From Pelodera strongyloides (lineage: Eukaryota; Nematoda; Chromadorea; Rhabditida; Rhabditidae), in the NCBI GenBank assembly GCA_036852015.1, contig JAANDG010000507.1, positions 43,334 through 107,333 on the forward strand: a stretch of DNA of 64,000 nucleotides. Reading direction: 5' to 3'. Both the position numbers and the translations under genes were made by a program. Of this stretch, positions 44,782-63,644 are shown one piece after another. A model generated the notes under the pieces. That model saw nothing but the letters and a program-made list of their open reading frames with translations, did no database searches and had not been told where the DNA came from. The first letter of the stretch is position 1; the number at the start of each line of letters is the position of its first letter.

Positions 44782-44787
44782 TTTATT
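44782..44787 (-). terminator. Candidate poly(A) signal of the cysteine-pair receptor gene
   Basis: AATAAA on the minus strand about 190 bp past the stop at 44976. Confidence 0.35.
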
Positions 44788-44975: not shown

Positions 44976-47900
44976 TCAAAACTTCAAACGGTGACTATCT
45001 GAAAGAATGGTATATAGCCAATTTTCGCACTCACCCTGGCGCGCCGCGCATAATGGGCACATAATGAGTGCCGACGGTGGGCCAGAAAGAAATATGCCGA
45101 TGGTGCGCGAACGGATACAAACCTCGCAAGGTGGATTTGAGGCCTGACTCTTGGGCCTCTTTTCGGCTGAGTTCCTGCCTTGCATTTCCAGACTGGGCTG
45201 GGGTTGGAGACTTCGTAAACTGGCAGATGCCGTAGTCGACAAAACAGAATTGACGGTAGACATGGATGTTGAAGGGCTTGTGATCGTGGATGCACTCGAT
45301 AGGCAGCTCTTCTGAAATGCACGCGCATACACACCCATAAACACACGCAAGCACGTACACACGACACGCACAAAACACACACGGACACACATATACACAT
45401 ACACACCGCACGCACGCACGCACACACACAAACAAAAACGTACATACGCACACACGTATGCACATACACACACACGCACATGTGTACACACACGCACATA
45501 CTTACATCGAGCTCTGCCAACTTGAGCCTTGCACTCGGTGTGTCCTGAGCCCTCAGGTCATCCTTCATCTTCTCAACTTGCCATTGACGTCTTATAAGGA
45601 GGAACCAAAAACCGGCGCCCAATAAGACGACAATGATTCCAAATATCATTCCAGCCAGGGAAAAGATGCTGAAATAGTAAAATTGCGACTTCCCTGTGTA
45701 GATTTAGCATACAATTGACAGCTTTCTCGATTCTCCGGCTTACATTTATAAGTGCCGAAGAAACTAGAAAATACGCGGGCATGTATGTCCTCCCCATATT
45801 TGTAATTGCGTACCATATAGAAACTGTAGACAAAATGCTCCGCCTACCGTATGTTTGCCGTGTACGCATGAAGGACGCGTTCACATCCTTCCTCCTCAAC
45901 ACGTTGACAGAACGCATGGATTCGCTGAAAGCACAATTCCCTGTCAAAGAGTCTTTTCCCGCAATATTCAAAACAGAGCCAGCGTCACCTACCTACGCGA
46001 CAGATTATAAAATCATCCCGTTTCCGACGCTGCATTATTTTTCTGCATAAAATACGAAAGAATTTTGTTCATTTGCATGTGCCATACGTGTTCTTCAAGT
46101 GAAAGGAAAGGAAAGCGAAATAAATTTGCTCATCAATACTTTGCATTCCATTGAGTGAAGATCCCGACCCTTTTCGCACCACGTCGCAAACGTTTCCTTG
46201 ATTCCATTCAGCTGGCGTATCTTCTGGAAGATAGGGAAGTAAATAGTGCTGTTAGGTAGCTAGTGATGACATGTTGTAAACTGTGTGGTGAAACTCCGCG
46301 CCATCGCCGAGCACAAAAAAGGGGCCGCCGCTGGTGCGCGGTGGGTGCGCCACAGGTGTTTAATTTCACTTGGCACACCATTTAGGGAAGGCGCGGCAGG
46401 TGCGCCAGTGGTGCGGCGCCGCACGTGTTTCACGTTGATGTTGCAAATGTTACTAAATCCTTCCTTTGCAATTAATCTATAACCTTTTTTGTGCGCCTAA
46501 AATGATGTTATTCTCATAGGACGGGAGTAACCAACCATGCGGTCATAATAAAGCAAATAAAATTCACATTCAGTAGCCTTTCGCATGCTCGTTCTCCTTG
46601 AACCGCGTGACACCGTGAGTGAAGATTTTTGGCGGTATTCTATGATAATTTAAATTACATTTATAAAATAATAGTATTATCTAAGAACCTAAATTTCTAA
46701 TCTCTCTTATCTTACGTTCAGTATTACTGCCACACGAAGGCATCTATACAATATCTGACAACATTTTTGGTAGCACAAACTAATTATATTTTACTGATAA
46801 AAAAGTCGGAATATACATAATCAAAATAAGCCTAAATGGTTTCATAAATCATAAAGAACTCACCAGGGTCATCTTATCATACAACTGATTGCAGTTGTCT
46901 AATTGTCCACTTGTCGGGAATTCTACGTCGCAGTTCTTCTCCAGAGCGTCGATGCACGCTTCTTTTCCTACACCACAAAAAATAAGGCCATTAAATAAAC
47001 TATTATATTATATTAATTTATATTTTGCATATAAATATTATATACTACATTACATTATATATTATATTGTATTATATTAATTAATTAATTCATCAGGGAT
47101 AAAATTTCAATCAGAAATACTCACTGTCAGAAATACTTCCTGGTTTCCTAAAAAGAGACAAACAAGGATACGGATACGGTACTTTATTATTCCGTAGTTA
47201 ATCACAAACTACAAACCATCTTCTGTGGAGCACACTTCCGGATCAAGTTTATTTAGGAATTGTTCAGTAATCCGCTTGCAGTCGCGCGTGTTGGACAACT
47301 TTTCGCAGCGCTCGAAAAAGGCCTGGAATTTAGGGCCATAACCATAACTCCATGAAAATTCGTGAAGATTGCGATGCTTAAAGTGAAACGCACGATGCTT
47401 TGGCGATTTGTGCCAGCTTTGCGTGAACAGTGAGTTGTTTCCTGTTAAAGTGCGAAAATAACTTTGGTTGTACTTATTATAGTAATTCAAGAAAGTACAA
47501 CTTAATTATTAGTTTCCAAAAAAATCGTGGCGAAGGCGCAAATAAGCTTACCTGACATCCTGGCAAATCCAGTGTTTTTGAGCACCAAATCTCAAAAACG
47601 ATCTCGCCACGACCGACGAGCAGTGATGCCTATAACACTGCTGTGGATAAAAGATAAAATTGAAGAATTAAGTTCATGTGCATTTGAAAATATGTCTGAA
47701 ATATGCGAAGTGCCTAATGTTGCTGACATTGATAACGTTGACTTTATTTGAATTCACCTGGGCTAGCGATTCACAAGTGTGATAGTCCCTTTCACAAACT
47801 GTCCCGAGTCGTTCAATTTTTGCCTGAAAAAGCGACAAGTGTATTTTCTAAAATGCGCGCCCAGAGAGCGCTTCGGGATTCACTGTTACCGTAATCACTC

Positions 47901-49396
47901 GCACATGTTGTTTTTATTTTTTTTTGGGATTGTCTGCAAGAATGATTACGTCAATTACTATGTCGTTTTTAGTTCCTTAGTGTGTTTTATTATCGATTTG
48001 TTTATATGTTCCATTTGTGTTGTCAATAATTTTCCACGTAAGCCGTATATGTTTGGGGTGATGTTGTAATATATATATTCTTTAGGCTGTATATCGGTAC
48101 AAGAAATGATATATCTCTCGCTAAGAGCCACATCAATTTTGTTTGTATTCGTGTTACTATTCCGAACACTGAGGAAACTTGGCCGGTGCGCGGCCTACAC
48201 CAGGCCCGAAAAAGGTGGGCCGCCTACACCTCGCCTACACCAGGCGCACGTCTCGCCCAGAGAAGGAGAGTAGCTCCGTGTGACATGAAAAGGTGGGCGG
48301 CTCGTGGGCCTGAGGTGCGCCTGGTGTAGGCCTGGTGTAGGCGAACAAAAAGGCACGTTATACTAAAGTTACACAGGGAAGGGTCCCTCTATTGATCGTT
48401 TCTACGCAGCCAAACGAGACGTCGCACTTCTCGCAAGCAACCGTTCGAAATTAACTTATTTATGTTTATACTTGTCTTCATTTTTCATTGTGGAGTTATT
48501 TCTTTTATAGCTTTATTGTTGCCCATTCAATTAAGTTGATTAACTGTGCTATCCAGCTATTGGTTGTTGTTAATTGCACTATGTTTAATATTTGTTTGCG
48601 GAATTCGTTCTTACACCTGATTTTGTGGATTATAACTAAGTGTAAGATATGAACGAATTCCACAAACCAATATTAAACATAGTAAAATGGTAAAATCAAA
48701 AATTAACGGTAAAATCATGAGGTCAACACATGTTTGTTTTGTTGCTCTATTCTATTACTGACATACTGTCATAATATTACTGACATACGCTTCAAGTTTG
48801 AATTTAGGGAAATAATCTACATATACCATATACCACAGGATCGCGAGTGCCGTACTTTCGACAAAAATGCAGGAATACAAGTAGTGTAAAGGTAAGCGTT
48901 TGATTCCGAAAATGATAATGCCGCTTTTCTTTTTTTCTAGCATGAATAGAGTATTCTTTTATTCAAGTAGGTTCGGTTCAAATATGCTTAAACGACATGA
49001 ATATGAAAACCTTTTCGTGTCACACGCTTGCCACTTATTAAATCGAATCAATCTTCAGAGAGACATTGCACTAACGCCACGCATTCTTGATTGACTGAAA
49101 TTATGGTCCGTCATACTGTAAAGGTGAGCTTTTCTAAAATATGTTTTTAATGCTAACTAATGTTGAAGCCTATGATCCTTTTAAAAATGTGCGTATTCAT
49201 CGTTTAATTTCTTTTTCTACCGCAGTTCTTTTCAGGTATTGGAGAAAATTGTGATCAGAACAACGAAGGCTAGCTACTTTACTTTGGGCCAAACTAAATA
49301 TGAGCCACAGGACAGGAAAATGAACATGCAAAAGGAACTTGAAAGTTAGTTTTTATGAGTAGTATTTTTAGTTATTTGTTATTATTATTGTTATAC

Positions 49397-49467
<71 letters not shown>

Positions 49468-51263
49468 GTATAATTTAAAAGAACGCAAAGCAATCCGGAA
49501 TATGGTGTGGCCAAAATGTGTGAAGCGTCCATATCTGAACAGTTCTTGACTATTCTTAGTCATAGGCTTTAGTATTAGGTTTTAAACAAGTGTTATTTTT
49601 ATTGCATTTCAGTGGTAATTCGTGGCATCAACGAGGAATGGTGTAGCACATAGAGAAGCAACAAGCAGTTGCAGGCCCGAAGATACTCTGAAGCTGAAGG
49701 AATACTTCGCTGCTGCGACCAAGATTTTCGTTATGTAATGGTTTTCGATATTCTATTTTGTTGTACATGGACACCGCTCCCTAGAATTTGTTTTGCTTGC
49801 TTCTGTATATAAGAGTATATAAGCGCTCATCGTGAGTGGTCATAGTTTACCTTGCACAAATTACTGATTTTATGTATGGATTAGTAACGATTAAAGAGCT
49901 CTGCGATTCAACATTACTCTCTTGGATCATTGCACTAGAAACAAGCGATGTAGATGCGTATAGTGTATTCAAACGATATATATGTGTCTTATAGATGTGT
50001 TCTAAACAATCTAGTTATCGTTTTAGCTCTGATAGTTAGGAAAACTCTTTCTACGAAAGTCGTGTTTTTATCTAGTAGGTTAGACTCCTGCCAAGTAGCC
50101 AATTATGTCCTATTACAAATTGCAAATTTTATACATTTTGCTTATTATATTTATATACATAGAGACAATTTTATGTTTTTTTATGACCGTTGTATTTTAT
50201 TGTAAAATAATAAACATACTTTAAAATGTTTTGTGTCGATTGGTGGCTGTTTCTGTTTTAATGTTTATTAATTTTTATTTAAGCTAATAAGAAGTGGGCG
50301 GGGCGGGTCACGCCCATTTTTTCCAAAGTTCGCCTACACCAGGCCTACACCAGGCCCACACCAGGCGCACCTCGCGCCGGCACCTGGCCTACGCTGCGCC
50401 CGAAATGGGTGGGCCGCCACGTCTGGGCCCACACATTTTTTGTAGGCCGCGCACCGGCCATATGCCGGCTGCGCACGCGCCAAAGTATCGCGTTGAAAAG
50501 ATGGTTTCCCGGCTGTTTTGCATCCTTTGTTTGAAAAATTCGACGAGGCTGTTCCATCTGGATATATTTTCAAGAGCTGGTATGGTCTGTCGGAAATATA
50601 ACGGAAAACGGGACGCGGATATTGTCGGCGGAAACATTAAATAAACAGGTTCGTGAATATTACCTTCGAATCGGTAGCCAACCCGATTAGGTCGCGACAT
50701 CGGTCGCTGATCGTAGAATATTCCTTGCCCTCCTTTATAGCACAACTCTTGCTCAAACGGTCCACGCATGTGTCAAACTGAAAAGGCTTCAATAGGGAAA
50801 GAGCAGGGGAAGCTGAAGGAAAGCGAGGGAAAAATTTCAAGAGGGTAGTGGAGAGAGAGAGAGAGAGAGAAAGGACATATTACATCAGGTTGATGATTTT
50901 CCTGAGCATGCTGAGCATGGTAACTGCGCATAAAAAACCCTCAAAATACTGTGTTTTGTAATTGTGGCCCATGAAGTACTCTAATTGTAAGAGATAATAA
51001 CCAACTACCTCATCTCTTCGCCTGCAGGCTGCATTCTCAATTTTGATGCACTGATCACTGTGAAACTCTTTGCACTGGTTGTCGATCATCTGTAAGATCA
51101 ATTTGTTAGCCATACCGGACCCATAATTCCAATAACAACAAGCACAAGTATTGTGAAACATTAAATCAGCTAATCTCTTCTGGCTATTAAACTGGCGAAT
51201 TTCGTCTCGATTTATGGTCGCATGCGCTTTTATTTGTCATATGTAAGTCCATTTCTAAGGTAT

Positions 51264-51322
<59 letters not shown>

Positions 51323-54300
51323 TATATATATAATAGTCGGCTTGATATGAGAGCGCGCACACTAGAATGGTTACCTCACAAATAATTGTGCTATTTGCCG
51401 AGAGGCAGTACGTATCATAAAGGTTTTCTAGTAGGTTGTCACTCATTGTCGACGCCTCCTGGAAGTGGAAAAAAAATTGAAGAACCGTTATTGTTTCACT
51501 CTGTGGAAATCATCAACTGCTAAAATTACTATCAACAAATAACAAACCTGGAATAGATTCCGACAAAGAGTTTGATCCAAGTCGCAAAGGGCACCCAGGT
51601 CTGCGGCAAAGAGCGCCTAGAATACAAGCGGTGATCACCGCGCAGTATACCGACCGAAACCATGAAAACGAAAATTTAGTGCGGGCTACCAAGAAAGTAT
51701 TTGCATCATGCAAACTTTAGTGCAACGTATTGTGGGCGGAGTCACCATGATTTTACGCGGAACAAAGTTAAGTACATTCAATGAACTCTGGTACCACGGC
51801 GTTCAGCCTTCACCACAGTCGAAAGTTCAATTTCGACTTCACAAGGCAAGTACCGGGATGAGCCCCAAAGACCCCTAACGAAGTTATATCCATATGTTGC
51901 AGCTAATGAATACCTGGTCGGATGTCAGAGTGGCCTTGGCAATGGAGCAAACATGGGAATCTTGTTGATCCTGAGCATCCTTCAAGCAGTAGCCTTCAAT
52001 CATTTCCAGACTCAGTTTTGGATTTCGACGCAGTGTCTCGACTTCTTCTTCATCTTTGACATATTCGAGGAGCCGATTGCATGCCTTGATGTTTGCGTGT
52101 ACTTTGCACTGATCGACGTATGTCTTAAAATAATAATACGATATCATTAAACACAATGACAAGAAGAAATTGGTGAAACAAAAACAATATTTACTCGATG
52201 CGGCTAAACCCGTGCCTGAATTTATCCGGAAACTGAGCAATGTTCGAATTTCGAATTCCAATTTTTCAAGAAATGAGAAATTGTCTATCAAACATTTTGT
52301 ATGACAAATAGGGGTCACCTTGCATAAATTTGTAATGGTATAGTCTCTACCACACGATCCACCCAAATCCTCTGCTATTTTGGTAACATTATCGAACAAA
52401 TGCTGAAAATAGCAATCCTGTATTGCAGCGTACCAATGTTACGCTACGCTACAACTACACATTGAACGAATAGGAAACATTAACTTCAACACGTAAACAC
52501 CATTCATAAATAGTTCTCAGCATTTCCGGTATTCAAGGTAACCTGATTATTACAAACAACTAAGTACCTGTACCAAAAAATTTTGAGTGAACCATGACGA
52601 TTATTACCTTGACAATGCGCTGGCAACGTTTTTCACTGAGAGATACCCTTTCGGAGCACAACTCTTGCACCGCCTTTGTCTTCACAACATACGTGGACTG
52701 AATGCAGAAGATTTAAACGATAGCGTGACTCAACATAATAAATGGAAACTTGTTGAGAGCTGCTATATACGTCAACGGTCACATACCATTTGTATTACTC
52801 AAAATTTACGGTTAGAAAACGACCTACCTCTTCTGCGGACAAAAACTCAACGCAAATGGCCGTTGGACTTTTAATGCCACACAACTTTTCCAAATTATTT
52901 AAAGTATCTTCAACATCGGTGCCATTCAAATTATCCATTGCCAGTCGCAAGTTGTACCTGCCAACTTTTTTAAGAATAATCACCCGAATTTCTTCCCGGC
53001 CGACGCAGGTGCCCGGAATTCTAATTCTTAAAGCGAAATGCCAGCCTCTTTGGAAAATTTGCATATGATCAGCAAATCCTATGTATCCTATGCTAATTTT
53101 GTACGATTGCCGTGGACGATCGTACAAAATTAGCATAGGATACATAGGATTTGCTTATCATATGCAAATTTTCCAAAGGAGCTAGCATTTAGCTCTAATC
53201 CGGCATTGTGCAATATTTTATTTTGCACATGACTAAAATCAATAATCGCCGACCGTCGAAAAAGGCGGTTTGACGCACACCGCGCGAGAAGCTCACCCAC
53301 AGCTTCGCAACTATGAAGCCTGTTTTCCTATGTCTCTTTCAGGGAAGTTACACTTGGCTGACACACATTTAATAATAATGGTTACTTCCAGGTTATCTCC
53401 ACACTAATCTGACTATCACGAAAAACTTGGGGGACTCAGAGGCACTCGTGCACGCATAGACAATAAATCGTACAAACGCGCAACGAAAACAAGCTTGGCA
53501 TCAACAACAATCGGCACATTATTCGGAAGCGAGAGGGAGGAAGCACAGGTCAGTTCTATAGGATCAGAGTACTGCTTTATAACTACTTTAATGTCGTCAA
53601 TTTTGTGGTCTTTATGAATTCACCAGACGGTCTAAACGAACTGCCATGTTTTTTCCCCTGATATCTCTCACTGATTCTTGAGGTAGCCGGATATTTATTC
53701 GCTCCCTTCTAGTACTGGATACACATGTACAAATTCGTTTGGATAGAGGGTTCATGTCGCCAATTGCTTTATAAAACTAGACACACCTGCTTTTTACATC
53801 ACCGCAACCATTCGACCCGTCCGGAAAATATTGTTCGCATAACTCGGCCAACCACAAAATTTGTTTGTCAGATCGCTTTATATACGCTTGATATCTATTC
53901 ACAATTTGCCTGACAGAACTTTATATCAAGCAACTGCCAAAAACGCAAACAGAAAGTGGAAATAGTAAACTGCGACAAAGTTAAACAGGGAAAATCTTCT
54001 GTGAACCATTTCAATTGTAATACCTAACCGAATGAATTGAAACGTCAAAATATTGACTCACACTACATCCTGGCACAAGTTCCGTCAAACATGCTTGCAT
54101 ATACGTCGGAGAAACCAAGGCGTCTTGGAAAAGACGCTAAAAGTTTCAGAAATTATTATGTGAAAGCAAGTATAAACATATGAAAGCAAATATCCACTGG
54201 ACGATATTAACATCTAATTTTATGAATTCGAACTCGCATTTTCGCCTATCCGGGCCAATGCGTAGACAATTACGAAAAGTCAAACCTTTTCGTAAAGTTG

Positions 54301-57300
54301 ACAGAGCTGGTGTTCTGTCACATTTTCCCCATTTTCTCCAACACACGCTGCGGCGATCAACGGGACAAGGTGGTTCTGAAACGAAACATCGATCTCGATT
54401 CTCGAAACTCGATCACAAATCTCAAGTGCACTTTTCCAGTGCAGCTATTGTAGAAAATCCTTTCGCTGTCATTCAATGACGAGAGAATACTATTATGTTT
54501 TTACTTTACTGATAGAAGTGACCAATTTCCCACAATCCACGGGAAACTTGAGAAGCAATCCCTCCGTGGTGCAGTACTCTTCCATAATTCGAAGACAAGA
54601 ACCTAGAAATTAGGTTTTCTTTGTTTAGTGAGCGAAGCATTATTAAAACTGTACGAATTATTGTCCTATAATGTTGATAGCTAACTATGTAACACTAAAC
54701 GAGATTGCCCCGTAAATGAGTATTTGAAATTTCTATGTTTAAAAACACCCACTGTATGAAGCAGTATGCCCGCATTTGGAGACATCAAATCGCAGTCGTC
54801 TGGTAATATCAAGTATTCGTGTACATTCTTCTTTGTGTTTCTTGCATACGTCGAGCTTATAAGCTGTCGAAAACTTCTAAAACAAGTCGCACTGCATACA
54901 TATGCCAATAACAGCTTTCGATAACAACCGTCTTCCTAATAAACATTAACTATTAGGAGCATTTTGGAAGACTGATACTTACTTATTGTTAGTACAAAAC
55001 ACTCACCAGGCACAACTCGGATGTAAGCAGATCTTCCAAAGATGTGCAAATCTCGTCGTAAATTCTTGAGAGAACACCATTCCGAATAGCGAGCTAAACG
55101 TAGTTCTGGCTTTTTTCAAACATACTAGTGAAAGTAGCAATACATATTGTATGTACAGTACTAATCATGCTTTTCGTAGTGTCAAATCCGATACTGATAT
55201 TTTTTGGCCAAGAAATGGCCAAACAGTTCATTTTCAGAGTCTAACATCCGGTGGGGCGCAAGAAATCCTTACCTCTGGGTAAATTTCGAAGCAAAACTTT
55301 GTCACCCGCCAATCGCGCGCTTCACCGAATAATACCGCACAACGTCCACGAAGGAAGTTAACGAAGTTCTAAATATATGGAAAGTATTACAGCGCCAACG
55401 GTAAGGATAGTTCTAGTCATTTATGTAAGTATCCATATGTGAACAACTAATGTACTGTTTCAAATTAAATTGGGAATTCAGCACTCACATCGTCGCGGAC
55501 AAATGCTTCGGCTATAATTTGCGTATCGTTTAAATGTTCGAGCATCAACTTCCAACAGTAGTGATCCTAAAACATAATTCTTTTAATTAAAGAATTTTTT
55601 TCAGACGTGGTGACAAGGAACGGGCAGAAATGTGATCTATTTTTTTGAACTTCGCCTGGTTGGTACAAATATATGAGACATACTCTAAAATAAGCCGAGG
55701 GACACAACTTCTCGACCGCAGATTTACATTGCCCAAGGATCTCGATCCGGAAGTCCGCCAGACAAGTCATACCAAATTGCTCAAAAAGATATATTATACA
55801 TCTGTTAACGATTGCATTTATGCTAACTACCAAAGTTAGTAACATCATCGTGTAAGCGAGTCGAGTGTACTCGATCTTCTGTCTTATGCCTCATGCTTGA
55901 AGCTTGTATTCATGGAGTAACGAGATTATTCAATACAGGACAGGCACGCGTTCGAATAGCCAACCAGACACAAGGGTCCATTCCGGTGATCGGTGCATTG
56001 TTGTTTTGATACATCCAGCACTGTAGAGAGAGGGAAATCATTCACAGTGGTAAACTGAAATGAAAATGTTTTATAAAATGAAAGTGCAGGTGAATCTCAT
56101 TGCGAAGATGAAGATAATAGTTAGTCTTTCTCGAATCACGAACCGCAATTTGCATGCATAACTCTTCGGACTTTTCGCACGCGGTTGGGAAAATCAGATC
56201 CTGAAATATTTCGCCTGAGTGCTAAGATTCCAGGGTCGTGTCTTCCATGATGTTTTAGTATCGCCAGAATTACGGATATTGATCTAGTTTGGTCTACAAA
56301 TAGCCAACGGGTTTGGCTTATATTTGGGCAACCTTCAAGTGAAAGTCGGTACCAAGAAGGAGAAACCTCCCTACCGTTACTGTAGAATTTTCCAGCAAAC
56401 GCAGGAATTCTCCAACTTGAGCGCATTCAGTTCTGTCGTCGCATCGACGTTCGAGAATCTGTACGTATATGTACTAGAAAGAAACTGACGCTTGGTACAA
56501 CCTCCGTAACTGTCCTGCGACCGTGAATTAAAAAGAGGTGAAAAATCAATATGGCAAACGAATAACAGATACATGCTATCTTGTTCAGTCTACACATACA
56601 TACATCGTTAATCACTATTTAAAAACGTAAATAATAGCTGAGTTACAACCTCAATCTGCTTAGAGATGGAACTGTCCGGAAACTTCTGATAGTCGATGAC
56701 GAAATCACGACTTTTTCTCAGCTCATCACATCTCCAATTATTACGCATGCAGTCAGCTAACAGCACCTAAATTGAAAACGTGTAACTGCGTGGGCAAGTA
56801 CCTGAACACCACGTGAAGCGTGGCAGTCCACCGAACGAATTTGTGATCAAATTATTTTTTTAAATAATGTTATCACTCATGTCAGTCGATGGAAAACATT
56901 CTCGAACACAGGAAATTTTCGTGAACAGGAGCCTAAAGGAAACTAACTTCGCAAAATAGCAGCTCTCGGTGTATCCAAATTCCGCGCTCGCAGAGTGACA
57001 TAGTCGAGTCTCTCGTTAGCTAAAAGTTACTCTACAAAAAAGATTAGCACTACACTCACATCCAGAATAAAGGGGTGACATTGTACAAAATGCATGCAAC
57101 ATAGTTACATAGTTGCCAAGGTGATAAAAAGAAAAATAACAATGATTGTGCAAAAATGATTAGTAACTGTCTCGGAGATAAACTAGATATAAAACTATAT
57201 AAAAAAACAGAGCAAACCTCTAAAACATTCTGACACTGCAATTGATACTCCTTACACAACATATTTAGTACTTCGATCTTTGTTCCCTAAATATTGGTTG

Positions 57301-60300
57301 GTAAGTATGTGCTATGTACAATTAACGTTTTTTTCTGTAAAAACATTATTAGGCTTCATTGAAAGTTCTTTCAAAAATTTCAAATGAGAAAGTGCAGTGA
57401 AGCTAATGTTTCATTTTCTCACAAAAAAATAGGAGCGCAAAAACACAAACCTTAGAAATTGACCCAAAATGTTCGTCGACAAACTTGGTGCATCTTGATA
57501 TATCCTTACATGCTCGAGCAAAACTCTGTACAGTGTCCTTGTTGGTTGCCAAACCATATTTCAACTGCATACTTTCTGAATAAAACTAGTTGCCATTCAT
57601 GGACTAAGCAACCGGACCAGATGTGGGTACAATAATGGTTTTGAAATTTGTACACATTGTACTAGTCGAAATGCAATCCAACTATGCCTACTCTGCCTAA
57701 TAAATAATCTAGTCGCACCTGCTTCGAAAATTATCGTTTCACAGCGATATTTTGACGGCTTCATGTAGCAGAATTCACGGGTGCGCTGCAATGGCAAAGA
57801 ACTAGCAAACACCGCGTGAACCAAACCAAACTAGTTGACAAGCAAAAATTACTGTACCTGACAAGTGATTTTTGGATTCGCAATAAACACATAATTTTAA
57901 CCGACCACGCAAATTGGGTGTACGAAGAGTTCTTTGATGTCGCACATATCCCACAGGCTGGTATCCTCGCCCGCCACCGGAAAAAAAATCAATACGTAAA
58001 TTTATCCAACAATTCTACCCAAAGTAAAAAAATTTACAATGCAGTGATATGCTAGCCAAGCTGTACCACTGCATGGTATTTATTTTCAGCCTCAATTCGA
58101 ACAACTGCATATGTGCCGTCTTATAATCCCGTATTTCCCATTGTTAGTGATTCCTCACCCTGGAGTCAGCTTGTCTATAACTTGATATACCCTTTCAAGG
58201 GAGAGGCTCACGAGAAATATGTTTCCTTCACTTTACCTTGCATAGAATGTCCGGAATTTCAGAAATATTACTGTGAAAACCGCCTAGAAAGGATCAATTT
58301 TTGCGCTTTTAGGGCTTTCCTGTGTTGGAAACGCCTCTTTATAATTGTAGGAATGATCTCTATTCATTTGAACATTATTGCGCTGAACAAGAATGCAATT
58401 GCACGGATATAAACCGTAAAAACTAATTGCTGTGTTGCTGACTACGGTCTACGGTCGAACGGGGGTCGAACGAACCTGGTCGAACTGCTTTGCATAGAAT
58501 ATCTATGCGAGTTCGACATGCAAATTAATGCGGTTTTCACAGTAAATTTCTGAGATACCGGACATTCCGCCCAAGTAAATTGAAGAAAAAATTTTTCTCG
58601 TGAGCCTCCTCCCTTTAAGGAAGTGATTATTATTTTTTTTGTAATTATGAATGCAAATTCCTGAATTTAGCAACAGGAAACTTTTACTGTAGTTTTCATC
58701 GTTTATTTTACGTAAAACAATGAAAAACAGTGTGTTTCAGCAATATCTCTTAGCTTCCCTATTTTATTTTGTTGCACTCTTTTCATCGGAAGATCGATCA
58801 ATACTCACCTTTTTTTACCAAGTATCTTTCCAAAAATCTTTTTTTAATGCTCTTTGCTTAAGGTTACTATTGCACAATCAAAATAAAGCATAAGAACAGG
58901 GTGATTTTCTAGTGAACCCATCCCTCTAAAATACTTGCTTAACTAATATGTACCACTTAGCAGGGCTGCGGTAGTTGTTTTATAAATTCGCGGTAGCTAA
59001 GCTTTTTGAGCATGCTCTCCTGCCTCGGGGGGCAAAGGTAATTTAATATAATTTTTCCATTGTGAATGTTTTCCGCCATACTATCAATATAAAATATTCA
59101 AACAGGTGCACATCTTAGTGAACCTATCCTTCTAAGCTAAGGATAATATGAAACATGCATAACCTGTGCAGTCACCAAACATAAAATAAAAAAATCCCAC
59201 AGAAAACATGACTGTTTCATCCACAAGGAAAGTAAAACTCACCGAAGTAAGTGCGTTGCAGAATGTTCTGTTATGGAGACATGCATATTTGGCTACAGGA
59301 ACTAGCTGAAATTCATGATCATAGTCGTATGAAAGGATGGGCTCTATGCTGAAAGAATCTTTATATTTATATGATCTTTGAGCGGAATTTTCGGTGTAAC
59401 AGGGGTGAATCGTTTGGTTTGTATACATTGTTAAAACCGTTAATACCCCCCCCCCCTTAGCTACGTTATTGAGTACTAATGAAATGGGCATAATATTTTT
59501 CGTGGACCGACCCTTTAACATGCATAACGGAGCTGTGAAAAGCTCCAAACACAAAAACTTACTTTTTCTTTAATAGATAATAATCCAAAAATGCAGCGCT
59601 GTTCACTTCGCAGAAGATCGGCCAAATTTCCGTCAATTTTTGGAATAAAAGTTATCAGATCAAAAGCACCGCAATATTTGTCGTACGCAGCTGATATTTC
59701 CGCGGGACTAGCTTTAGAATAGTTCCCCACGGTTTCGCAATACAACATTTCTTCGTCCAAAGTGGAGCAGTTGGATTTCAGCTTCCTATCGCAAGCTGCT
59801 TTGTAAATCTAAAAAAAGATTATTTCTCTATTCAGTTTCGCGAGTTTTGTTGTGCTCTTGTGTAGTTTTCGCAGTGGATCATTGACAAAAAAAACCTATA
59901 CTTGCAAAATATGACAAGGCTGCGATGAGCGTCCATGAAAAAGTAAAATTCTATATTCTAAATAGCAAGCACGTTCTATTGGCATGATGTGCCTTTCTGA
60001 GTTAATATGACGTTGTGAGCACAGAGTATGACGTTGTGAAATTTTTTAAACGTACGAGGCACGGTGTTGGCCAGACTTCATCGCCAGCGCACAGAAATGA
60101 CTTAGTCAAACAATGTTTCTCAAACCATTCGTCCTGCTCAGAAACATGCTAAAGATACTCCTTTTTATTCAGTACAAACAAGTACATTTATTTGTATTGC
60201 TCGCTTGTCATGAATTTATATCACTACAGTGCAAACAAACAAAGCTAGATTGCCATGCACGCAAAGTTTGACTATCTATCATTGTCATGGCCACGTCCTA

Positions 60301-63269
60301 GAATGTAAACATAAACTATATGACTATGATAAAACTTTAGCAGTTAAAAAAACAGGGAAAAATTTGAAGGGGGGTATGTAGAATGGAGGTAATTGCATTT
60401 ACATGTAACTTATCCAAAGTTTTCTACTTATGGTATGATTGGAAACAACGCCATGATAAATGAGAATGATGTTAATGACCAAACTCAATTTCGCAAAGCC
60501 TTGCAACAGCAACTACATTTCAATTTTGCTACATCTCAATTTTACAAACCAAACTCAATATCTCAGTTTTTTCATAAATATACCTGCTGGAGTGCTGTAC
60601 AATACGCCGCCGGAGTCCCATCAGCGGTTGCGCACCTTTTCGTCGTTAGTGCTAGTGCAGTGCGCACGTGCTGGAATATTTAGTTGCAAACATGAAACGG
60701 GTCTTACGAATCGTCCCGATTCGTCCCGATTTGAATGTATGCAACTTACTTAAGCTAATGCATGTCAACATCAAACTCGTACTGGTAAAACTTGAAACTC
60801 GTACTGGTTTAAGGCGGCATGGCCGGGGTGACTATCATAGCCGGGGTGACTATCATAACAAAATTATGGATTCTCCGAACGCTAAAGCGAAATACCGTCC
60901 GGTTTTTGAGACGCACCGTGGACAGTTGAAATCTTGCGTATTTGTTAATTTGCTCGGATTTCGCTCGTTTTTTTATTGTAATTTATGTACATTTGCATAA
61001 GCTGCATAAGATACATGCGTACTCGATGTGTTTCAAAAACCGGCCGGTTTTTCGCTCGCGTAAAGGTCCACACTAGACGATGGTGACTTACCGGTGGAGT
61101 ATAATTCCAAAACAGCTGGCACCAATATTCGTTTGTAGAACATTCTTCAACCATCAACTCGTCGCAAACCGGGCCATCGCCCAGATAAAGACACGGCTTC
61201 ATCTGGCAATATTATATAGAAAATGAAATATATATATCTCGTATCGTAGAAAAATCACTGCCTTAATATAATAATATAATATTTATTACGCACACAAAAA
61301 TGTACACGCACAGTTTGTCGATAAAATACACAAAGACATAAAAAGCGAACAAAAAAGAAATACAACAATATACAGGAGATCATAACTGAAGACTACGAAT
61401 GTGAAAATATTGTCGGATTGCTCTCAATCATTAACGAGGTTCGATGTACGAATGAGTGTCTGCGTACCATTTTAATTACTCTGGAAATAATGACCTTTGA
61501 TCTACCTCTACGTGTGATAGAAACTCGAAACTTGTACATTGTTTGTAAGTGTATTCCACACTTACCGGCCAATATTTTCCGGAGCATTTTAGCATCAGCA
61601 CTCTTTCTTCGATCTACTAGTGAATCCAAGTTTAAAGCAACATTTCTTTCATTACTAGAGGGAGTTTCGTTATACTTAAATATAAACAAATAAACTTCGA
61701 CAAATAAACTTCAATACTAATGAACAAATACAACTGTTATTCCCGCTAAAGACAGGCCAAAGCAGTCTCAAGTTATGGGGTAGTAAAAATTCACGACCTT
61801 CTCTGTGATCCAAGGAGCTCTTCTTTCCAGGCAGGCCTCCATGTACCACTGAATGCAAGTGAGTTAACCTCGAAAATTAGTTCCGTTGAACAATTTCCGT
61901 TCCTCTCTTCGGAGTGAGTTATTGCTTTGGCTTTGAGACAAATCAATGAAACCAGTTTGGAAAGCAGGGAATATTTGCAGATGGCGATGTCTGATTGCGC
62001 AATTGAAAAATGTGCCGTACCAATATTGAAGTACCAGACTTCTTGTTTACGGGCGAGATTATCTGAATCAAACTATGCAAGAAGAAGCTACCATGCAACC
62101 TCGGCCCATTTCCTTTGAGATCGGAGACACCTCCAGTTTACATGAGTTCCATAGCACGCGGTCGAAAGGCAAGGTTAGCGTCTGGAAGCAATATCTATTC
62201 GAAAAGTACGCAAGAACATTAAAGGGATAGGTTCACTAGGATTTGCACCTTTTTGGATATTTCCTATTTATTGATAGTATGGACGAAAACATTCATTCGA
62301 ATTTATAAAACAACTGGGGTACCACAGCCTAGCTAACAATAAGTGGTGAAATAGCGTGACTGGGTTAGAGATGTAGATATTGTTGTGATAGACAGATGGT
62401 GATAAAAGGGCCTGAATCTTCTACTGTCTCCAGTCCTGGTACGCTATTTCCCACTTATTAAATGAATACAAAACTTGCAATTGCAAAATGGCACGCGAAT
62501 TCAGAATACTCGAAATACACTTTAGTGCCGTTCCAGTGATCGAACCAGAATCGTCCCGGTGTCGTCTCGTACCAATCGAACGCCCGACATGTTTTCCAAA
62601 AATACACTCTTCCTCTCCAACCACTGCCTCCCTAAAAAGTTACTGGATAAGAAGTCGGTCACGAAAAAAAAACGCCGCGTCCGCACGTATACTTGCCTCG
62701 TTGACTTTTTCGATCAATATTTTCCGACAAGCTTCATGTGATTTATTTCGTCTCTCATATTCAGCCACACTGCATCCACCTTCAGCAATTTCCCAGCCAA
62801 CCCCTGACTCTAAAGCAGAAATATAACAGAATTCTAGCGAATGTTGACGTGGTCGTATCAAAATCATAATCCCTCGGGTGAGCAGGAATGTTCGCACTGT
62901 TTTGTCCATAGAACTTTATGAGGTAACCCTCACCTATTCCTGTAAATCTTCAATGTTTTTGTTTGTGCTTTTACTTTAGTCAGAATTGCATTTTCACGTT
63001 TCATAGTTATTCAATGTGGTATTAATTGAAAAAACTTGTGCGACATTTTGTGTTCGTATGTTATGTTATGTTGATGATCCAGGTAATTTTTTTTCGTTGA
63101 TGATCCAGGTAATTTCACCACCTAATCCCCAAGGGACTCTTGTCTTATTATTTTTCCCAAAATTCCCAATTTGTATACTATATAACACCCAAAAATGCAC
63201 AATACTTAACCTACCTGCCGCAACGTAGCCGCCGAGGAAAACTATCGAGAATGCGACAACAAGTTTCAT
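44976..63269 (-). CDS. Giant type I membrane protein with cysteine-pair repeats, 44 exons, no named family
   Basis: Exons, descending: 63269-63215, 62809-62693, 62627-62475, 62062-61869, 61848-61798, 61613-61566, 61202-61092, 59808-59563, 59455-59243, 57785-57719, 57575-57451, 57286-57218, 56766-56650, 56458-56375, 56200-56144, 56020-55937, 55779-55684, 55566-55489, 55368-55273, 55093-55007, 54876-54753, 54602-54505, 54375-54286, 54136-54064, 53886-53787, 53020-52828, 52697-52608, 52402-52319, 52123-51914, 51616-51548, 51458-51375, 51089-51009, 50777-50664, 47640-47552, 47441-47390, 47322-47217, 47139-47125, 46967-46864, 46223-46140, 45924-45848, 45763-45713, 45668-45502, 45311-45123, 44998-44976. 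All phases agree and the sum is 4,515 nt (1,504 residues plus stop). Signal peptide MKLVVAFSIVFLGGYVAA; ectodomain of about 1,360 residues with recurring close Cys pairs such as CKDISRC, CKEYQLQC, CMRNNWRC, CKKHKEEC, CKVHANIKAC; one membrane helix; cytoplasmic tail. The helical cysteine-pair pattern recalls nematode DUF19/T20D4.11-like domains, unproven. The acceptors of exons 3 and 9 and the donor of exon 42 are the weakest points. Confidence 0.75.
45123..45311 (-). other. Cytoplasmic-tail exon open in two frames (exon 43)
   Basis: With the donor after 45502 the exon reads KELPIECIHDHKPFNIHVYR and the protein ends DSHRLKF. With the stronger-looking donor four bases earlier (after 45506) it reads a Ser/Thr-rich chain (KSCLSSASTITSPSTS) and ends IVTV at 44984. 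Both frames are free of stops over 189 nt and both meet a stop in exon 44. I prefer the first because its codons look more like the neighbouring exons. Confidence 0.5.
45333..45501. repeat. CA/TG microsatellite
   Basis: Imperfect CA-rich repeat filling the intron between exons 42 and 43 of the cysteine-pair gene. The long minus ORFs rich in Cys and Val here are this repeat and not protein. Confidence 0.9.
45502..45668 (-). other. Transmembrane exon (exon 42) of the cysteine-pair gene
   Basis: It encodes IFSLAGMIFGIIVVLLGAGF followed by WFLLIRRQWQVEKMKDD. The hydrophobic run of about 24 residues is bounded by RR on the inner side, so the C-terminus is cytoplasmic. The 44-nt intron upstream is near the nematode minimum. 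Confidence 0.85.
46310..46430. repeat. GC-rich imperfect inverted repeat
   Basis: GCCGCCGCTGGTGCGCGGTG and GTGCGCCAGTGGTGCGGCGC with TGCGCCACAGGTG and CACTTGGCACACC between. The words resemble those of the elements at 48181 and 50331. It lies in the intron between exons 38 and 39. Confidence 0.45.
47125..47139 (-). other. 15-nt micro-exon (exon 37) of the cysteine-pair gene
   Basis: Between CCAG and GTGAGT only 15 nt remain. Using it, the phase 1 end of exon 36 joins the phase 1 start of exon 38 and the reading frame is kept (GSISDR). Without it, or with the acceptor 8 nt further upstream, exon 38 reads into a stop. Confidence 0.6.
48181..48346. repeat. GC-rich inverted repeat built on CCTACACCAGGC
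   Basis: GCCTACACCAGGCCCG, CGCCTACACCTCGCCTACAC and CAGGCGCACGTC at the left pair with AGGTGCGCCTGGTGTAGGCC and TGGTGTAGGCG at the right. The same words occur at 50331-50460. It is in intron 33 of the cysteine-pair gene. Confidence 0.7.
48570..48692. repeat. AT-rich inverted repeat
   Basis: ACTATGTTTAATATTTGTTT and GCGGAATTCGTTCTTACAC pair with GTGTAAGATATGAACGAATTC and CACAAACCAATATTAAACAT. Arms are about 45 bp with a loop of about 30. Confidence 0.75.
49103..49653 (+). CDS. Possible small nested gene (three exons, 56 aa)
   Basis: Exons 49103-49123, 49236-49344 and 49613-49653 join in phase from ATG to TAG. The donors are GTGAGC and GTTAGT, the acceptors TTTTCAG and ATTTCAG. The peptide begins MVRHTVKVLEKIVIRTTKAS and ends VIRGINEEWCST; it is charged and has no signal or membrane segment. 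I do not recognise it. It lies wholly within intron 33 of the minus-strand cysteine-pair gene. The ATG exon has no clear upstream acceptor. A chance chain of this size is possible. Confidence 0.35.
49391..49467. repeat. ATT microsatellite
   Basis: About 23 uninterrupted ATT/TTA units. Confidence 0.9.
50331..50460. repeat. GC-rich repeat with CCTACACCAGGC words
   Basis: GCCTACACCAGGCCTACACC and CAGGCCCACACCAGGCGCAC at the left and GTGGGCCGCCACGTC, TGTAGGCCGCGCACCGGCC at the right, related to 48181-48346. Arms are less complete than in that copy. Confidence 0.6.
50852..50871. repeat. GA microsatellite
   Basis: Run of about ten GA units. Confidence 0.8.
51261..51332. repeat. TA microsatellite
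   Basis: About 70 bp of nearly pure TA in the intron between exons 31 and 32 of the cysteine-pair gene. Confidence 0.9.
53028..53198. repeat. Family C element with a family A-like outer end, 8 bp from an exon
   Basis: TTAAAGCGAAATGCCAGC (the start of family A) leads into CTCTTTGGAAAATTTGCATA and CCTATGTATCC (the body of family C); the right side is complementary and ends with AAAGGAGCTAGCATTTAGCT. On the minus strand it lies directly upstream of exon 26 of the cysteine-pair gene, which starts at 53020. Confidence 0.7.
58113..58640. repeat. Inverted repeat of about 500 bp, imperfect
   Basis: AAGGGAGAGGCTCACGAGAA, CATAGAATGTCCGGAATTTC and ATTACTGTGAAAACCGC at 58196-58285 have inverted partners GCGGTTTTCACAGTAAAT, ACCGGACATTCCGCC and TTCTCGTGAGCCTCCTCCCT at 58530-58615. 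The plus ORF at 58113-58412 falls on this repeat and is not supported as coding. It fills the intron between exons 9 and 10. Confidence 0.7.
60883..61060. repeat. Family A inverted-repeat element in the cysteine-pair gene
   Basis: TAAAGCGAAATACCGTCCGG left end and CCGGCCGGTTTTTCGCT right end; the flanking TTAA is decayed. It ends about 30 bp past the exon 7 donor. Confidence 0.8.
61265..61345. repeat. Copy of the TTTATTACGCACACA repeat (family E)
   Basis: ATAATATTTATTACGCACAC, then CACAGTTTGTCGATAAA, match the arm of the palindrome at 35007-35260, one end only. Confidence 0.55.
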
Positions 63270-63313: not shown

Positions 63314-63319
63314 TTTATT
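63314..63319 (-). terminator. Poly(A) signal between two minus-strand genes
   Basis: AATAAA on the minus strand, 112 bp after the stop at 63431 and 40 bp before the acceptor of the next gene. Confidence 0.4.
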
Positions 63320-63430: not shown

Positions 63431-63583
63431 CTATCCTATGCAGCGGCGGAACAGAAGGACAATACTTGTGCCGGAGGCACGACCACATTTTAGAAAGTTT
63501 TGCATGCAGTTGACATTGAACAAGTCCAGCTGCGTTTCAGTGACGTTTTTTACAAAGACATCGTGCCGACAAACTCCCAAGTC
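63431..63583 (-). CDS. Last exon of an upstream gene of the same cysteine-pair type
   Basis: On the minus strand TTTGGACAG (AG at 63585-63584) is followed by a 50-residue open frame and TAG (63433-63431). It contains VCRHDVFVKNVTETQLDL and the close cysteine pair NCMQNFLKC, then CIG before the stop. The style (short phase-0 exon, paired cysteines, NVT glycosylation site) matches the ectodomain exons of the gene that starts 162 bp further on. The rest of the gene lies beyond the window. It could instead be an unused exon. Confidence 0.5.
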   Translation of the reverse strand, partial: DLGVCRHDVFVKNVTETQLDLFNVNCMQNFLKCGRASGTSIVLLFRRCIG

Positions 63584-63644
63584 CTGTCCAAATTTCTTTA
63601 TTAGAAAAAAAACATGGATAAGATTATTGACAAACGGTAAACCA

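Follow-up and report, generated by a model that had tools for sequence, protein, structure and literature searches.

A candidate undescribed family of large type I membrane proteins in the nematode Pelodera strongyloides, apparently built from a four-exon, eight-cysteine module

Among described proteins, the closest in outline to the gene analysed here is GLG1 (also ESL-1 or MG160), which has a signal peptide, a single C-terminal membrane helix and a short tail, and which resembles it in its long cysteine-repeat array, many small exons and C-terminal hydrophobic stretch. A second point of reference is DUF19, the T20D4.11-like domain (PF01579), a cysteine-rich domain of nematode secreted proteins. 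There is also precedent for a new nematode cysteine domain in CCD-aECM (PF23626), which is described as nematode-only and helical, with conserved cysteines, forming the C-terminal region of secreted matrix proteins and carrying the four-cysteine motif C-x22-C-x7-P-x3-C-x9-C (PMC11925461). The major surface glycoprotein of Pneumocystis (PF02349) is described as a surface protein family with serial cysteine-rich domains (PMC7940399).

The gene lies in a window of 64,000 nucleotides (the whole stretch of DNA analysed; assembly GCA_036852015.1, contig JAANDG010000507.1, positions 43,334 to 107,333), the right end of which is the end of the contig (C507; 107,333). Its predicted protein has the GLG1-type signal peptide, single C-terminal membrane helix and short tail, and kinship with GLG1, our first guess from this outline, was abandoned after profile comparison. 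Against an alignment of 14 of the 120 listed GLG1 proteins, hhalign gave probabilities of 0.6% (modules) and 3.1% (window protein plus its paralog on contig C453), near the 0.7% and 1.7% returned by reversed inputs (column shuffles, 0.1%). Pfam lists for the protein, for pieces of it, for the paralogs and for the module consensus all lack the Cys_rich_FGFR repeat of GLG1 (PF00839), which spans 58 positions, as against approximately 115 residues with eight cysteines in the window module. The genome's own GLG1 is a separate gene on contig C493, predicted in part and closest to Mesorhabditis belari and M. spiculigera (60%), then to other nematodes, which places the genome probably close to Mesorhabditis. 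It too has many small exons, several of them phase 0 at both ends, and is hydrophobic over a stretch near its C-terminus. A Golgi glycoprotein of the GLG1/ESL-1 type, binding cargo or growth factors within the secretory pathway, would account for the similar outline, but given these profile results and the separate GLG1 gene we consider that identity quite improbable.

The original prediction had also hinted at a DUF19/T20D4.11-like relationship, and a distant array of this kind, with many copies fused and tethered to the membrane, would suit a nematode genome and cysteine-pair modules that are probably helical. DUF19 is nevertheless absent from every Pfam list for the protein, pieces, paralogs and module consensus, in lists filtered of most matches above about E 0.1; a six-frame genome scan also found none, which carries little weight because the same scan was blank in every control genome. 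We regard a DUF19 origin as unlikely. CCD-aECM resembles the window module in being nematode, helical (a prediction in our case) and pinned by cysteines, but it has four cysteines, whereas the window module has eight and is arranged in tandem with a membrane helix. Its motif is absent from the first aligned module, which is spaced C-x6-C-x20-C-x8-C-x6-C-x8-C-x32-C-x12-C, and PF23626 occurs in no Pfam list here, its presence in the searched Pfam copy being unconfirmed. One window module drew a non-significant match to PF02349 (E 2.3) that neither the family consensus nor the paralogs reproduced; the Pneumocystis proteins are fungal, and their likeness to the window protein is functional at most.

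No named family had been recognised in the original prediction, and wider searches agree. Nothing scored above the Pfam cut-off for the protein, pieces, paralogs or module consensus (lists requested to E 5-10, with filters that remove most matches above about 0.1). The NCBIfam search, confined to the consensus and the last 433 residues, gave best E values of 0.008 and 0.01, under the cut-offs, and in the PDB one module consensus reached E 0.29 at best and the module profile matched nothing. From a protein database of 5.8 billion sequences, scores were computed for the 7,988 candidates with the most words in common, none of them at E<=1, in a word-seeded search that is weak for distant relatives; residues 128-275 yielded 107 candidates, none at E<=10. 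This database contains Mesorhabditis, Pristionchus and Caenorhabditis proteins, as a GLG1 control established. Among the matches listed in the open-licence literature, none describes this module family by title or abstract start. On these sequence comparisons, the family appears to match none that has been described, although distant relatives could be missed.

Gene model and protein architecture

The original prediction of one gene with matched phases (44 exons, about 1,500 residues, ending at 44976) is confirmed, with close agreement in size: a single minus-strand gene is predicted at the locus. The curated model runs from the ATG at 63269 to the stop codon at 44986-44984 in 47 exons (4,566 nt, 1,521 residues), with all phases matched and no internal stops. 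By phase, 34 exons are 0-0, four 0-1, four 1-0, two 0-2, two 2-0 and one 2-2, and two introns have GC donors. The features are listed below, each resting on the curated model and, where given, on the further evidence in brackets.

63215..63269, minus: exon 1, ATG and signal peptide, MKLVVAFSIVFLGGYVAA (C453 counterpart; hydrophobic windows 1-4)
62697..62803, minus: exon 2, GC donor (C453 pair)
62479..62631, minus: exon 3, GC donor (C453 pair; paralog homology)
62092..62181, minus: exon 4 (C453 pair; paralog homology)
61798..61848, minus: exon 5 (C453 pair; paralog homology)
61566..61613, minus: exon 6, doubtful (counterpart absent from aligned paralog models)
61092..61202, minus: exon 7 (C453 pair)
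60584..60670, minus: exon 8 (C453 pair)
60056..60148, minus: exon 9 (C453 pair)
59563..59808, minus: exon 10 (C453 pair; folded alone)
59243..59305, minus: exon 11 (C453 pair)
57906..57965, minus: exon 12, weakly supported (C453 pair, 25% identity)
57719..57785, minus: exon 13 (C453 pair)
57451..57575, minus: exon 14 (C453 pair)
57218..57286, minus: exon 15 (C453 pair)
56948..57019, minus: exon 16 (C453 pair; paralog homology)
56650..56766, minus: exon 17 (C453 pair)
56375..56458, minus: exon 18 (C10 alignment)
56144..56200, minus: exon 19, weakly supported (paralog alignment)
55965..56054, minus: exon 20 (C453 pair)
55684..55779, minus: exon 21 (C453 pair)
55489..55566, minus: exon 22
55273..55368, minus: exon 23
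55007..55093, minus: exon 24 (module/intron alignment)
54753..54876, minus: exon 25, phase 0 to 1 (module/intron alignment)
54505..54602, minus: exon 26, phase 1 to 0 (module/intron alignment)
54286..54375, minus: exon 27
54024..54136, minus: exon 28, 3' end uncertain (C10/C625 predictions)
53787..53909, minus: exon 29, 5' end uncertain (C10/C625 predictions)
52828..52957, minus: exon 30, phase 2 to 0 (C10/C625 predictions; paralog alignment)
52608..52697, minus: exon 31 (module/intron alignment)
52319..52402, minus: exon 32 (module/intron alignment)
51914..52123, minus: exon 33, two cysteine pairs (folded alone)
51548..51616, minus: exon 34, cassette position A (module/intron alignment)
51375..51458, minus: exon 35, cassette position B (module/intron alignment)
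51009..51089, minus: exon 36, cassette position C (module/intron alignment)
50664..50777, minus: exon 37, cassette position D (module/intron alignment)
47758..47823, minus: exon 38, cassette position A (module/intron alignment)
47552..47629, minus: exon 39, cassette position B (module/intron alignment)
47217..47322, minus: exon 40, cassette position C, phase 0 to 1 (module/intron alignment)
46864..46967, minus: exon 41, cassette position D, phase 1 to 0 (module/intron alignment)
46568..46639, minus: exon 42, last module position A (paralog alignment)
46140..46223, minus: exon 43, last module position B (paralog alignment)
45848..45924, minus: exon 44, last module position C (paralog alignment)
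45506..45668, minus: exon 45, membrane helix with GMIFG and start of tail (hydrophobicity; paralog alignment)
45123..45311, minus: exon 46, Ser/Thr-rich tail
44984..44998, minus: exon 47, terminal IVTV and stop TGA
44782..44787, minus: AATAAA, possible poly(A) signal of the gene (sequence scan)

The gene finder combined splice matrices, codon scores and intron lengths and was self-trained on the window, on both strands. On the minus strand its uncurated output was one 44-exon gene from the ATG at 63269 that ran to 44776; several of these exons were wrong and the end was overrun, and both faults were corrected by paralog homology and reading by eye. The same self-trained finder returned no gene from the opposite strand of the locus, and none of 30 dinucleotide shuffles, likewise self-trained, yielded a gene. 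The true exon count may be 45-47, and at the junction of exons 28 and 29 an alternative reading by eye fits the C10 paralog better. Several candidates of early models were dropped in curation on grounds of paralog homology, repeats, or phase and cysteine pattern by eye: 58283-58237, which reads like an interspersed repeat and lies in a query region that also matched five other contigs; 50576-50340; a merged 52417-51914; 53026 as the start of exon 30; and other C-terminal exons.

The original description of a signal peptide, one membrane helix and a tail holds for the curated protein, in which the only 19-residue windows to exceed a hydrophobicity of 1.6 are those that begin at residues 1-4 and 1396-1409: the ectodomain comprises approximately 1,380 residues, the membrane helix lies near residue 1400 and the tail has approximately 95 residues. 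Cysteine pairs do recur along the whole ectodomain, 98 of the 100 cysteines lying N-terminal of the membrane helix, and the predicted abundance of phase-0 exons with one pair each is likewise borne out (23 of the 47 exons are both 0-0 and hold exactly one pair). That the product is a type I membrane protein with an array of modules is, on this evidence, very likely.

Paralogs in the same genome

The 159.9 Mb genome holds at least four further genes of the family: the N-terminal half of one on contig C453, two in tandem on C10 and one on C625. The C453 gene (minus strand, about 15879 down to 2389) is curtailed by the contig start and by repeats. It pairs with 18 of the first 21 window exons over 534 aligned codons, with 40% amino-acid identity, 39 cysteines in common, one confined to the window protein and five confined to the paralog. 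Nucleotide identity is 0.56 at the first codon position, 0.64 at the second and 0.37 at the third, and the third position being the least conserved points to selection on the protein.

Two paralogs are predicted at full length, that on C10 (515936-529738, 42 exons, 1,368 residues), reached by searching with the second half of the protein, and that on C625 (33937-10021, 49 exons, 1,669 residues); both models are uncurated, the finder's parameters having been learned from the window gene. The two signal peptides were read by eye and fall below the hydrophobicity cut of 1.6 that the window's passes. A second C10 copy lies just upstream (predicted at 500518-511134) and probably extends past the segment analysed, and contig C606 carries a copy of the end of the C625 gene. 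At C342:121881-122030 one exon of the C625 gene recurs alone, in a copy of 65-66% identity; minus-strand prediction gave no gene around it, and no family neighbours were found.

Identity over aligned columns is 41.9% between the window protein and C453, 29.1% between C453 and C10, 25.0% between window and C10, 23.3% between window and C625 and 21.5% between C10 and C625. At this level of divergence, 80 of the window's 100 cysteines are matched by a cysteine in C10, 8 by a different residue and 12 by a gap; for C625 the corresponding figures are 78, 12 and 10. Introns identical in column and phase number 26 of 46 between window and C10 (mean 0.9, maximum 5 in 500 random placements), 17 of 46 between window and C625 and 17 of 40 between C10 and C625 (random maximum 4 in each case).

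These comparisons bear on the possibility that several adjacent genes, or a decaying gene, were joined into one frame by chance splicing, a reading to which the unsure exon 6 and exon 28/29 junction and the repeats within a 2,840-base intron lend some room. The C10 and C625 genes, however, keep the exon order of the window gene from the N-terminus to the membrane exon, with common introns, no stop interrupts the 1,521 codons, and the shuffled sequences gave no gene; we consider chance joining extremely improbable.

The eight-cysteine module and its four-exon cassette

The internal repeat register called for in the original prediction was recovered by profile, as a repeated module of approximately 115 residues, a length first indicated by the spacing of cysteines, with eight conserved cysteines in four pairs. 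A module profile built from the window protein alone scores 62.7 bits on C10 and 54.1 bits on C625, against at most -26.8 and -18.3 bits in 50 full shuffles of each, in which cysteine positions were free. With cysteines fixed, support is less even: in leave-one-out comparisons within the window protein (ten units, 80 shuffles), four units outscored every shuffle, three were reached by one, two and three shuffles, and three by eight, nine and 23. In an earlier register (nine units, 60 shuffles), five outscored every shuffle, one was reached by a single shuffle and three by 18, 23 and 31. This unevenness marks the N-terminal units as the weaker ones. An iterated profile, trained on its own matches, finds 33 units across four proteins, including ten in the window protein. 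The module alignment, anchored largely on cysteines, takes in 19 of the 33 (the 14 omitted include short, weak and several well-scoring units); seven cysteines are invariant in it and the eighth is almost invariant, identity per column averages 22%, and some units have an extra cysteine pair. Gaps between cysteines showed no significant simple alternation of short and long (p 0.18).

Introns were mapped on 18 of the 19 aligned units (window, C10 and C625). A phase-0 intron lies between cysteines 2 and 3 in all 18 (columns 39-40, within one column), between cysteines 4 and 5 in 17 (column 83) and at the leading edge of the module in 14 (columns 2-4), and the intron between cysteines 6 and 7 varies in position and phase. 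Pairs of introns coinciding in column and phase number 309 (random mean 14.5, maximum 31), and in the window alone 28 (random mean 1.5, maximum 8). Since introns recur at equivalent positions of the module, the ectodomain appears to have grown by duplication of four-exon cassettes and not exon by exon. The proposal of growth by exon duplication thus stands as to duplication, but not as to the single exon as the unit: judged from intron positions, the multiplied unit is a four-exon cassette, usually with one cysteine pair per exon.

Proposed role and genomic surroundings

On the sequence evidence, much of the ectodomain consists of about ten modules in tandem, each from a four-exon cassette bounded by phase-0 introns; we propose that each module would be an all-helical bundle pinned by disulfides. 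Exons 10 and 33, folded singly, came out all-helical at low confidence (mean pLDDT 53.2 and 48.9). An array of such bundles would form a stiff rod at the cell surface. The membrane helices of the three full-length proteins contain G-M-I-x-G (GMIFG, GMIIG and GMIVG), an instance of the GxxxG pattern that favours helix dimers, and may likewise favour dimers here. The surface that diverges between the fixed cysteines would bind a partner, whether a ligand, the matrix or another cell. The tails differ, the window's being Ser/Thr-rich and ending in IVTV, which we take to be a possible class II PDZ ligand, and those of C10 and C625 being lysine-rich; family members might thereby be coupled to different inner partners.

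Of all parts of this proposal, surface recognition or adhesion is the one we hold with least certainty, and it is put forward tentatively. The favoured explanation as a whole, a type I, cassette-built and putatively dimerising recognition or adhesion glycoprotein, we rate at somewhat below an even chance. Conservation of most cysteines, the helix and many introns at 21-25% identity within one genome is what would be expected of fast-changing recognition rods. An unlikely alternative, on a par with a DUF19 origin, is a fast-evolving reproductive or self-recognition surface protein (sperm-egg or mating) whose paralogs are lineage-specific versions. It would fit a family at 21.5-41.9% identity in one genome with its cysteines kept, and a search that found no relative although Mesorhabditis, Pristionchus and Caenorhabditis proteins are in the database; but the divergence may simply be old, the database search misses distant relatives, and the codon positions indicate constraint on the protein on average, not positive selection.

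That these genes form an undescribed nematode family of giant type I receptors, with a new eight-cysteine helical module and a gene structure that records its growth, we judge evenly balanced between true and false. If true, it would add a large cell-surface protein family and a new disulfide module to nematode biology, and the intron record would show cleanly how a giant ectodomain grew cassette by cassette. With tiny exons and a fast-drifting sequence, such a family would easily be fragmented by automatic gene prediction; the module alignment offers a profile for finding relatives in other worms.

All four family members examined have a splice acceptor within 15 bases before the ATG, scoring 2.6 in the window, 5.0 in C453, 8.2 in C10 and 5.0 in C625 (28.5% of 1,003 ATGs score >=2). 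From the sequence it is a possible trans-splice site, weak in the window. SL1-like RNA genes stand in tandem arrays on C26 (approximately 600 bp apart) and on C857 (approximately 1.5 kb apart, beside a 5S-like gene); we take the C857 unit to carry the 22-base nematode SL1 leader and its neighbour to be a 5S rRNA gene. For these arrays the Rfam SL1 model gave 49 matches, the best at 47.7 bits, below the cut-off of 75, and matched two bacterial or archaeal controls as well. Approximately 160 bp before the window gene's ATG, an exon-like minus-strand stretch with cysteines (63431-63600) ends in TAG at 63431, and an AATAAA lies at 63319, between that TAG and the ATG at 63269; the stretch, where the contig comes to its end, may be the final exon of an upstream gene in the same operon.

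A mobile element may lie in the largest intron (2,840 bp), where 43-nt inverted repeats with many GCCTACACCAG units (48304-48346 and 50328-50370, 91% complementary) are separated by 1,981 nt. The exon 29/30 intron holds an 80-nt inverted repeat that is MITE-like (53028-53198; 93% complementary, 11 nt between arms). Elsewhere in the window the gene finder calls, for instance, 19 exons on the plus strand at 22001-42099 and a 3-exon gene on the minus strand at 2001-22099. A rough joined prediction on the plus strand (10278-33522) probably merges several genes and presumably includes a MATH/BTB (SPOP-like) protein, and plus-strand reading frames at 1-870 resemble what we take to be a mobile-element reverse transcriptase.
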